Positions 21,005-23,979 are shown, numbered from the stretch's first letter. The stretch is 64,000 bases of DNA from an uncultured Clostridia bacterium (GCA_944387895.1 CALXGQ010000007.1:1-64000); one strand, 5' to 3'. The notes: a model not told the origin generated them from the sequence alone. Program-made: numbers and translations.

Positions 21005-21047
21005 ATACGAAAAACGTGCTTTTCTGCAAAATGTCAGAAAAGCACGT
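21005..21047 (-). terminator. Terminator after sipL
   Basis: Perfect 14-base stem AACGTGCTTTTCTG/CAGAAAAGCACGTT (21013-21047 with an 8-base loop). It is followed on the minus strand by TTTCGTATTTT. Confidence 0.88.
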
Positions 21048-21051
21048 TTGA

Positions 21052-22575
21052 TCAGGAGCGCGCGATCAAGAGAAGGCGTTTATCCTCCAGAACATCCCGG
21101 TTTAAATCGTTCACCCGTTTGATCGCCGATACGGAGGTGGCATATTTTCGCGCGATATCCCAAAGCCGCTCTCCCCGCTCGCCGTAATATACGATCAACG
21201 GCGCCCGGCACTGCTCCGGGATCGGATGCTCCGTATCCAGTTCAACGGCCGAGATGACGTCGTAGGATTCCCGGGCAAATATCATCACCGAACAAAGAAT
21301 TTCCGTTTTCAGCTCCGCTCGTTCCCCCTCCACGCTCCAGCTTGTGTTCAGCACGCAGGGATGTATTTCACACCGCATCTGCCCCGATAGACGCTTCAGC
21401 TCCTTTTTAAGTGTAAAGGGTAAAGCCTTGTCAATGCTGCGATAGTGTCCGTCTTCCCGCAAAAACAGGGAAACGTCCAGAACGCCCTCGACAGAAAGGG
21501 TCTTATCCTGCCCGGTGATCCGCTGCACGACCGGCGTGGCAAGCGCCTGAATCACCTCGGCGTCCGGCGCGTCCACCGGGATTTCATGCCGGAGCGTTTC
21601 TGCAATTTCACATTGCTCTGTCATCTCTTCTACCGTCAGACGTTCGTTTTGCAGCGTCAGCGGATATCCGTTGGAATAAGCGTCCGTCAGCAGCTGGTGT
21701 TCCCGATTTTCATAAAGCTCGCCCTCGATCAGCAGCGTTGCGGTGATGGAGATCAGGGCATTTTTTCCACTCTCGTCCGCCTCTACGTCGGTGCGCAGAT
21801 TTTGGATCGAAGCCCTTGCTTCCATGCAGCAGCCGTCGTCCTGCTGCTGCAGCTCCAAGATCTGGCTGAAGGGGATCGCCGTCGAGGTGCTTTCGACCCT
21901 GCCGGGATCGGATTCGGGCGTATATAATACATAGAGATCCGCCACACCCTTGACCACGGCTTTACCGGGAAGCACCTTGACATCCTTGATACAGACCGAA
22001 CCTTCTGTTTTCAGGATCTCCTGCACCTCGGCGTTGATTTCTATTTCGCCCTGAACCTTGGTTGTATCCGCGACATGCTCCAGAATGGTAAAAACCGTAG
22101 CGGGAACAAACAGCGCCTCCGCCTTATCGCAGTCCATCTCCTCGATGGTTTCTGTTTGCTGCTGGTCCTTGACCTTTACCGCAATGGCTACCGTTGCTCT
22201 GGCGCTGACCTTGCGCGGATTCAAAAGCCTGCAGGAGGTACCGGCGACCCGTGCGACCGCCTGAACCCACGGATCCTCCCCTGTTTCCTTCAGCGGCAGG
22301 CTTTCGCGGAAAGCGACCGTTTCAGAAAGGGCCTTGATGCCGCCATCCTCCTCACCCTGGTATATCACGGTGAAGCGGCAGCTGCCCTCCAGGGAAAGAC
22401 GGTCGCCCTCCACCTCCTTTTTCAGAATCACCGGAACGGCGCTGCATTGAATGATTTTCTCCGCTGCAGGCGAATAGTCCGGGATCAGAAGATCGCTTTC
22501 GCATTTCTCTTCCAGAAAATTTTCATACAGCGTTCTGGCCGCTGCCACCCTTGTTTCCTGTTGACTGCACTCCAT
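21052..22575 (-). CDS. sipL: SipL-like spore coat assembly protein (DUF3794 repeats plus LysM)
   Basis: A 507-residue protein with repeated SPOCS/DUF3794 segments (roughly 20-150, 160-290 and 310-440) and a C-terminal LysM domain (ERGERLWDIARKYATSVSAIKRVNDL). This matches the architecture and length (about 520) of SipL, the Clostridium difficile partner of SpoIVA needed for coat assembly around the forespore. No signal peptide is seen, as expected for a mother-cell protein. The ATG at 22575 has AAAGGAG upstream. A spoVM-like gene directly upstream supports the call. Confidence 0.88.
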   Translation of the reverse strand: MECSQQETRVAAARTLYENFLEEKCESDLLIPDYSPAAEKIIQCSAVPVILKKEVEGDRLSLEGSCRFTVIYQGEEDGGIKALSETVAFRESLPLKETGEDPWVQAVARVAGTSCRLLNPRKVSARATVAIAVKVKDQQQTETIEEMDCDKAEALFVPATVFTILEHVADTTKVQGEIEINAEVQEILKTEGSVCIKDVKVLPGKAVVKGVADLYVLYTPESDPGRVESTSTAIPFSQILELQQQDDGCCMEARASIQNLRTDVEADESGKNALISITATLLIEGELYENREHQLLTDAYSNGYPLTLQNERLTVEEMTEQCEIAETLRHEIPVDAPDAEVIQALATPVVQRITGQDKTLSVEGVLDVSLFLREDGHYRSIDKALPFTLKKELKRLSGQMRCEIHPCVLNTSWSVEGERAELKTEILCSVMIFARESYDVISAVELDTEHPIPEQCRAPLIVYYGERGERLWDIARKYATSVSAIKRVNDLNRDVLEDKRLLLIARS

Positions 22576-22635
22576 TGCCCACGGCTCCTTTGCTTTTTAT
22601 TATTACCTATGCCGCGGGCCGCAGGAATAGAACGG

Positions 22636-22716
22636 TCAACTGACGTTATGTATTTTAAAAAAACGTTTCAACAACCCCCGCAGGAGCTTCGGCGGTTTCA
22701 CAACAACGATCTGCAT
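22636..22716 (-). CDS. spoVM: SpoVM-like 26-residue sporulation peptide
   Basis: A 26-residue protein beginning MQIVVVKPPKLLRGLL and continuing with a basic amphipathic stretch (KRFFKIHNVS). This fits SpoVM, the amphipathic helix that marks the convex forespore membrane and anchors SpoIVA: the length is the same as in Bacillus subtilis and the MK/Q-x-V/I-V-K-x-PK-x-L-x-G pattern is shared. AAGGAG sits eight bases before the ATG and overlaps the stop codon of the upstream small gene. It lies 60 bases upstream of sipL, whose product also acts with SpoIVA. Confidence 0.82.
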   Translation of the reverse strand: MQIVVVKPPKLLRGLLKRFFKIHNVS

Positions 22717-22728
22717 ACCATCATCTCC

Positions 22729-22884
22729 TTAACAGAATTTTGCAATCACTACGCCCATGATCAGGATCAGAACGCAGCAGACGGCAATGATCAGAATATC
22801 CGGGAGAAAGATTTGAATCAGGATCCCCAGCGCAATGGCGGCCGCAATGCAGCTGACTGTTTTAAAAATTTTGGTCTTTCTCAC
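22729..22884 (-). CDS. Small hydrophobic protein, 51 residues, in the SpoVM-SipL cluster
   Basis: I do not recognise this family. The frame reads VRKTKIFKTVSCIAAAIALG... and ends VVIAKFC, with two hydrophobic segments (about 9-28 and 30-50) and a basic N-terminus, so it is probably a small membrane protein. The start is GTG at 22884 with GGGAG eight bases upstream; an ATG five bases earlier is out of frame and stops at once. The stop codon TAA forms part of the spoVM ribosome binding site (TAAGGAG), so the two are probably translated together. The position suggests a sporulation role (inference). Confidence 0.7.
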   Translation of the reverse strand: MRKTKIFKTVSCIAAAIALGILIQIFLPDILIIAVCCVLILIMGVVIAKFC

Positions 22885-22915
22885 AGCATCAACTCCCTTC
22901 CGAGACATTCTCGCC

Positions 22916-23305
22916 TTATTCTATGCGAAACTGAAAAGGATGGTACCAATGATAAAGATCGGTTGAATACAGCAGATTTACCCGTGCCCGAAGCTCTGCC
23001 GCAGTTGCTTCAATTTCATGCTCATCTTCCGTTTTTAAATATGCGTTGAGCTTATGGAGCAGCATTTCCAGCTCTTCAAGACGTCCGGTAGGGATCAGGC
23101 GGTGGGCCCAAAACTGCTGTTTCTGATAATAACGATCCAGTTCTTCGGCAAGTTCTTTTTTTTCAGGCAGCGTTTCTGCTGCGCTCACCGCGTCCAGCCG
23201 GGCGGTCATGCCGGCGGCAAATTCCGATACAAACCACAGATCCCAAACCGAAACGCCGATAATAAACACGATAATAATAACAAGAGATATCCAGGTTCTT
23301 TTCAT
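22916..23305 (-). CDS. DUF4363-family membrane-anchored protein
   Basis: A 129-residue protein with one N-terminal membrane segment (SLVIIIVFIIGVSVWDLWFV) and a helical, charged outer domain. The pattern and the position directly after a DUF421 gene, with a four-base overlap, match DUF4363. Its function is unknown. The topology suggests a short inside N-terminus with the helical domain facing outside. Confidence 0.75.
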   Translation of the reverse strand: MKRTWISLVIIIVFIIGVSVWDLWFVSEFAAGMTARLDAVSAAETLPEKKELAEELDRYYQKQQFWAHRLIPTGRLEELEMLLHKLNAYLKTEDEHEIEATAAELRARVNLLYSTDLYHWYHPFQFRIE

Positions 23306-23979
23306 TGTAACTCCCGCTCTACCAAAAAGGTTTTTCCCGTATCGTCCATCGTCAGCATGAAAACCGCTTCCAGCGGCAGCCGATACCCGGCCAGGATCCG
23401 CTCAAGCTGTTCTACTGTCACCGATTTTTCCCGCATATTTCTTTCGATGCAGTGCCCGTCCATGACCAGAATGGCCGGAACGCCCCCTTCGCCATCGACC
23501 CGTATCTTCATCGCCGAAGCCGGCGGCGGCGCCGCGTCCGGCTTCGGGATCACCGAAACGGTACCGTTTGTTTCCAAAACCGCCGTCTGGATATCCTCGA
23601 TCCGCATGATCCCATTCCCCCGCATCGCCTCCATGATATCCTCCATGGAAACGCGCGTGCGGAGAAGCTCGTGCTGATTGATTCTGCCCTGATAGATCAG
23701 CATCACCGGTCTCCCATAGCAAAAAGCCCGGAAACGCATGGATTTCAGCGCAAAAAGCGACATCAGCAGCTCCAGCGCAACCATCAGAAACATCGGCATG
23801 ACCCCCCAGAGCAGCGGCATATTCATATCCTGAAGGGGAAGCGCCGCCAGCTCGGAAAGCATGATGGTGATCACCAATTCCGAGGGCTGAAGCTCTCCGA
23901 TCTGCCTCTTTCCCATGATCCGCATGGCCAAAATGACCACCATATACAAAACAATACACCGAAACGCACTTACCAGCAT
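23302..23979 (-). CDS. DUF421 (YetF-like) membrane protein
   Basis: A 225-residue protein with three N-terminal membrane helices, the hallmark MRIMGKRQIGELQPSELV and a C-terminal soluble domain with PVMLIYQGRINQHELLRTRVSMEDIMEAMR and VLETNGTVSVIPK. This is the YetF/DUF421 family, common in spore formers, whose biochemical role is unknown. ATG 23979 fits the ribosome binding site (GGAGAGG) better than the in-frame GTG at 23988. It is the first gene of the cluster leading to SpoVM and SipL. Confidence 0.88.
   Translation of the reverse strand: MLVSAFRCIVLYMVVILAMRIMGKRQIGELQPSELVITIMLSELAALPLQDMNMPLLWGVMPMFLMVALELLMSLFALKSMRFRAFCYGRPVMLIYQGRINQHELLRTRVSMEDIMEAMRGNGIMRIEDIQTAVLETNGTVSVIPKPDAAPPPASAMKIRVDGEGGVPAILVMDGHCIERNMREKSVTVEQLERILAGYRLPLEAVFMLTMDDTGKTFLVERELQ

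Follow-up and report, generated by a model that had tools for sequence, protein, structure and literature searches.

A conserved small gene directly upstream of spoVM in Clostridia encodes a predicted membrane hairpin and a candidate partner of the spore basement layer

The stretch of DNA analysed here (the window, 64,000 nucleotides, with positions counted from its first letter) is part of a 1.69-Mb genome assembly, where it lies on contig C7 of genome G000. On its minus strand, a VanY gene is followed by five closely spaced genes, encoding a DUF421 protein, a DUF4363 protein, a 51-aa protein, a SpoVM-like peptide and SipL, and then by recJ and relA. The five frames, which the initial annotation had read in this order, are all present where it had placed them (Table 1). 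The DUF421 and DUF4363 frames overlap by 4 nt, and the gaps after that are 31, 12 and 60 nt. The terminator that had been described 3' of sipL was also found, as a 15-bp stem with a T tail; in addition, a hairpin with a T tail can be read from the sequence 5' of DUF421, at about 24100-24057. The reported overlap between the stop codon of the 51-aa gene and the spoVM ribosome binding site was borne out as well, the TAA being part of TAAGGAG, which contains the AAGGAG site.

Table 1. Genes and sequence features of the locus, in window coordinates.
Feature	Position	Strand	Evidence
DUF421 (YetF family) gene	23302-23979	-	PF04239, 4.1e-28
DUF4363 gene, second in the DUF421-DUF4363 module	22916-23305	-	PF14276, 5e-11
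Gene for a 51-aa predicted two-helix membrane hairpin, GTG start, directly 5' of spoVM	22729-22884	-	Frame and ribosome binding site
spoVM (SpoVM-like), 26 aa, Pro9 retained	22636-22716	-	NF033436, E=0.0015, below cut-off
sipL, SPOCS domains and C-terminal LysM	21052-22575	-	PF12673, 6.8e-32; PF01476, 3.6e-5
Overlap of the 51-aa gene's stop codon with the spoVM ribosome binding site, TAAGGAGA	22724-22731	-	Sequence
Terminator-like 15-bp stem with T tail, 3' of sipL	21012-21049	-	

The SpoVM-like peptide reads MQIVVVKPPKLLRGLLKRFFKIHNVS. The SpoVM_broad model (NF033436) aligns to positions 1-23 of its 26 residues with 18.5 bits, under the cut-off of 31 bits, and the SpoVM profile of the order, which includes the window peptide, matches it at 1.6e-13. 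Because similar frames that keep Pro9 occur in the same genus, family and order, the original reading of this gene as SpoVM-like stands; the synteny and the sequences of these relatives suggest that it is a divergent member. The SPOCS matches of SipL fall in three stretches, and its LysM domain lies at 467-496. SpoIVA, which had been named as the partner of both SpoVM and SipL, is encoded in the same genome (PF09547, 2.6e-116). Across the order, sipL follows spoVM on the same strand and within 1.1 kb in 25 genomes (including those of the window, L003, L004 and L016), and the two genes are divergent in six; their side-by-side placement recurs in clostridia and does not set the window apart.

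Two more species of the genus (G004 and G001) have the five genes in identical order and frames, and their versions of the 51-aa protein are 78% and 61% identical to that of the window. In the three species, the dN/dS of this gene is 0.18-0.26. Its changes at first, second and third codon positions number 11, 5 and 21; 18, 5 and 23; and 16, 6 and 26, such that third positions account for 21-26 of 37-48. Within the genus, the gene is about as well conserved as DUF421 and better conserved than DUF4363. By these measures the gene, which is present in a single copy in the genome, is real and under purifying selection in the three species, and the conservation of gene order and of the small frame for which the initial annotation had advised a search is thus found among relatives. 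An ATG lies eight codons upstream of its GTG start; we prefer the GTG, since both relatives in the genus start, with ATG, at that position and a GGAAGGGAG site precedes it. A scan of the window protein against Pfam and NCBIfam returned no model over cut-off. Single members of its family matched YtpI, DUF3784, DUF6249, YonT and YtaF; these matches were weak, under cut-off and mostly specific to the member, and we rejected them as hydrophobic noise. As judged from these scans, the family is one without a covering Pfam or NCBIfam model, its members giving only weak and inconsistent matches below cut-off.

We searched 295 genomes of the order with a profile of five members (A1) and, in the same set, with a SpoVM profile. 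Genomes with a listed spoVM yielded 61 A1 matches, 52 of which lie directly 5' of spoVM on the same strand. These comprise every match in a short frame (52/52); the other nine fall inside frames of 143-646 aa and were discarded as spurious. Many spoVM loci that A1 missed still have a hydrophobic frame of 47-60 aa ending 10-50 nt before spoVM, and such a gene was present at 30 of the 40 class-level spoVM loci inspected, as well as at 8 of the 11 from other classes. A small hydrophobic frame occurs just 5' of spoVM at 66 of 114 loci, which are related rather than independent; the corresponding figures are 16 among 365 starts of other long frames and 50 among 2300 randomly chosen positions. A profile of 43 members, some of them taken from the inspected loci (A8), matched in 131 of 278 genomes of the class, representing 91 of 175 genera; among genomes with names, the gene is carried by Petroclostridium sp. 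X23, Acetivibrio sp. MSJd-27 and Defluviitalea phaphyphila. Detection of SpoVM across the phylum was weak (15/219). Diverse SpoVM sequences, once aligned, proved too variable for a pattern search, which succeeded with a narrower alignment. The gene 5' of the small gene varies (rsgA, pduL, thiN, rpe or DUF4363) while spoVM stays 3', indicating that the tie is to spoVM. The window gene, which ends 12 nt before spoVM on the same strand, shares the size and place typical of these genes.

The arrangement varies among lineages. In one family (f43; loci L107, L108, L112 and L127), two such genes stand in tandem 5' of spoVM, the outer of which ends about 230-270 nt before it, probably as a result of duplication of the small gene. 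Nearly throughout loci L149-L170, with the exception of L150, spoVM is found without it; these loci belong to Ruminiclostridium, Thermoclostridium, Acetivibrio mesophilus and MAGs, and the pattern has the appearance of a clade-wide loss, which could act as a natural knockout. At two loci related to this group (L125 and L128), the gene 5' of spoVM encodes a PDZ-like protein. In a further family (f41; L226, L227 and L228, from genomes G344, G411 and G496), the small gene follows rpe-thiN and is itself followed by a terminator-like hairpin, Asp23/YloU and YloV. No spoVM-like frame was found behind the small gene at the f41 loci, and a divergent spoVM elsewhere could escape the SpoVM profile; the small gene appears to have been retained in this family where spoVM was lost or moved.

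Alignments of the members from the order (A3) and from the class and phylum (A7) matched one another with an hhalign probability of 98.1 and a score of 60 over 49 aligned columns, while 60 shuffles of columns that preserved the hydrophobic blocks scored at most 23. Across classes, two glycines are nearly invariant, and the loop proline, P28, is invariant in 43 sequences. An AlphaFold2 model of the 51-aa protein has helices at 3-26 and 29-50 (mean pLDDT 81.5); in the window protein, as in the family, two hydrophobic helices are joined at the conserved proline. The charge over 90 members is +2.5 at the N-terminus, about 0 in the loop and +0.9 at the C-terminus, a pattern that predicts both ends of the hairpin to lie inside, on the cytoplasmic side. 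A search of the PDB with the hairpin model gave no fold match, an outcome to be expected given its small size. The 51-aa protein is thus predicted to be a two-helix membrane hairpin, belonging to a conserved, uncatalogued family of roughly 47-60 residues.

One gene that very probably belongs to this family has been described. In C. difficile, RNA-seq showed that spoVM is cotranscribed downstream of CD25622, which encodes a 50-aa protein, in a σE-dependent manner (Ribis et al. 2017, PMC5607322). The authors judged CD25622 to be unique to the Peptostreptococcaceae and to have little impact: an insertion in the gene, which is probably polar on spoVM and so effectively a double mutant, gave a 3-5-fold defect in heat resistance, equal to that of the spoVM mutant (PMC5607322). 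Because of this polarity, the role of CD25622 itself was never isolated, and the literature searched holds no mention of the gene beyond that report. The comparison with CD25622 went through genome G546. The RpoC of this genome and the C. difficile polymerase chain 7l7b_D are nearly identical (about 12 differences in roughly 950 aligned residues), marking it as a close Clostridioides relative of C. difficile. It contains MRNNKSKVLLGILCLATGMAVILSMLLPGWIWSALTALILIGCGALLFFC, 50 aa in length when read from an internal, third in-frame ATG (the codon beginning MRNNKS) of a 64-aa frame, and located 32 nt before spoVM. Profile A8, of which it is not a member, matches this copy (G546:C1:1402305-1402442) at E=2.1e-6. 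On this evidence, CD25622 and the window gene very probably belong to one family: they are alike in size, in their place directly 5' of spoVM and, through the G546 copy, in the hairpin sequence pattern, whereas the window copy differs in its flanks, with a DUF421-DUF4363 pair on the upstream side and sipL on the downstream side. As A8 recognises the G546 copy, the published range of CD25622 is too narrow; the hairpin family reported here extends through the class and beyond.

We propose that the hairpin gene is cotranscribed with spoVM, most likely in the mother cell under σE as in C. difficile, and that its product would reside in the outer forespore membrane, where it would support the basement layer of SpoVM, SpoIVA and SipL. 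SpoVM only lies in the membrane surface, and the hairpin would probably be the integral membrane partner beside it, perhaps touching SpoVM or the coat and serving as an anchor; alternatively, it might guard the insertion or stability of SpoVM. Taken as a whole, we regard this proposal as evenly balanced between right and wrong. The two proteins are both tiny, membrane associated and encoded at one locus; however, the 26 aa of SpoVM form one amphipathic helix, whereas the hairpin protein has two helices in about 50 aa and bears no sequence relation to it. Roles of the kind proposed are filled in C. difficile by SpoVQ (CD3457) and in B. subtilis by SsdC, mother-cell proteins that sit in the outer forespore membrane and link the coat and the cortex (PMC8265636). 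Unlike the hairpin, SpoVQ is bitopic, has a soluble domain and is confined to the Peptostreptococcaceae, and SsdC is confined to the Bacilli; neither is a bare hairpin adjoining spoVM, and the greater size and the architecture of SpoVQ rule it out as the hairpin protein itself.

Several observations count against the proposal: (i) the CD25622 insertion is no worse than loss of SpoVM alone (PMC5607322); (ii) many spoVM loci lack the hairpin gene, among them those of the Ruminiclostridium/Thermoclostridium group as a whole; and (iii) a simple search for σE-type promoter patterns, covering 200 nt 5' of each of 102 hairpin genes, revealed no enrichment, with one strict match. Given this lack of enrichment, we do not claim CATAGAAT, at the end of DUF4363, as a promoter. 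Nor do we favor the idea that the hairpin is a redundant backup of SpoVM, as the C. difficile insertion, in which both are lost, resembles the loss of SpoVM alone. Family f41, in which the hairpin gene persists without a spoVM behind it, argues against a strict dependence on SpoVM.

That same family bears on a second reading, in which the hairpin, instead of being a structural anchor, regulates membrane proteolysis, for example by holding SpoVM against FtsH or by guiding its insertion. The SpoVM of B. subtilis is both a substrate and an inhibitor of FtsH, and many small membrane proteins of bacteria act on proteases or transporters, which lends this reading some appeal. It is likewise in keeping with a gene that is cotranscribed, and closely paired, with one for a small membrane peptide (PMC5607322). 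Against it, the hairpin can persist without an adjoining spoVM, and we consider such a regulator unlikely.

A further possibility is that the short frame serves mainly as a translational leader that opens the spoVM ribosome site, the peptide itself being inert. In favor of this, a short and regular gap separates the hairpin stop codon from the spoVM start (mostly 10-30 nt, with a median of about 17, at 102 loci), and in the window the stop codon overlaps the spoVM ribosome site. Against it, the residues are under selection, the proline and glycines are conserved across classes and the predicted topology is uniform. In addition, family f41 has retained the frame at loci where no spoVM follows, suggesting that the hairpin does more than lead into spoVM and might function in its own right. 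We therefore judge the leader explanation to be improbable.

The DUF421-DUF4363 pair raises the question of how far the functional unit extends. The window DUF421 protein scores 97.8 bits against a cut-off of 23.6, through its C-terminal DUF421 domain (its YetF_N domain is below cut-off), making it a Pfam member of the family of YetF, YdfS and 2Duf. DUF4363, which was not found in the literature searched, occurs in 215 of the 295 genomes of the order, and DUF421 stands directly before it at all 30 loci inspected there, usually among unrelated convergent neighbors. A convergent nrdR-like gene is often found beside the pair (L179-L208; e.g., L179, L190, L191, L203 and L206). Only in the window's family does the pair adjoin hairpin-spoVM, in genus g1 with sipL behind and in genus g3 with sipL elsewhere. 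The B. subtilis YetF and YdfS are spore inner-membrane proteins expressed in the forespore under σF/σG (PMC10126465), and C. difficile CD1789-CD1788, a DUF421 family protein and a hypothetical protein, are listed under σG (PMC3789822). DUF421 is thus an already established spore inner-membrane family, and describing it as a candidate sporulation factor, as the initial annotation had done, was right and not new. Going by gene order, the pair is an independent two-gene spore-membrane module that has been placed upstream of spoVM in the window's family.

Whether all five genes constitute one functional sporulation unit can be weighed on these data. They are codirectional and tightly spaced, with terminators at both ends, and the order DUF421-DUF4363-hairpin-spoVM is retained in two genera of the family. 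Conversely, the pair is independent elsewhere, sipL is located elsewhere in the second genus, and DUF421 genes are under σF/σG in B. subtilis and C. difficile, whereas spoVM and sipL are under σE. The B. subtilis DUF421 proteins are inner-membrane proteins expressed in the forespore, while the window gene stands upstream of mother-cell genes; by this analogy, DUF421 is likely to occupy a different compartment from SpoVM and SipL. As DUF421 is forespore expressed elsewhere, an operon shared with spoVM would cross compartments, and an internal promoter between DUF421-DUF4363 and hairpin-spoVM is likely, although the motif search described above revealed none. A single five-gene unit is therefore hard to credit, and a function shared between the pair and spoVM is doubtful. 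The earlier view of the five genes as one unit, with DUF421, DUF4363 and the 51-aa protein as candidate sporulation-membrane factors, survives in part: SpoVM, SipL and the 51-aa gene belong together, conservation of the small frame reaches well past the genus, and the 50-aa gene of C. difficile is cotranscribed with spoVM under σE (PMC5607322), whereas the inclusion of DUF421 and DUF4363 in that function is not sustained, given their separate module in the order and their σF/σG control elsewhere (PMC3789822, PMC10126465).

Finally, the frame might encode a type I toxin-like peptide, or a hydrophobic one arisen by chance, with no role in sporulation. It is short and hydrophobic, and one family member matches the YonT toxin model very weakly (E=0.086). 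This reading is already contradicted by the linkage to spoVM, with its fixed synteny across classes, and by the single genomic copy and purifying selection, and we give it almost no credence.

Extending the proposed partnership with SpoVM further back, we can envision, as a speculation that is more probably wrong than right, that an ancestral hairpin was a standard part of the spoVM locus in sporulating Firmicutes outside the Bacilli, acting as an integral outer-forespore-membrane partner of SpoVM and still serving the coat or cortex machinery where SpoVM has been lost, and that the Bacilli either lost it or never had it. If this were true, the lack of the hairpin in Bacilli could partly explain why SpoVM is essential in B. 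subtilis and not in C. difficile. The hairpin alignment offers annotators a profile for a gene that is short enough to be easily missed. Very few membrane-side factors for the attachment of the clostridial spore coat are known, and the hairpin gene makes a good candidate for a component of that process that has gone unnoticed; its occurrence with spoVM across families and classes makes it a concrete and testable addition.
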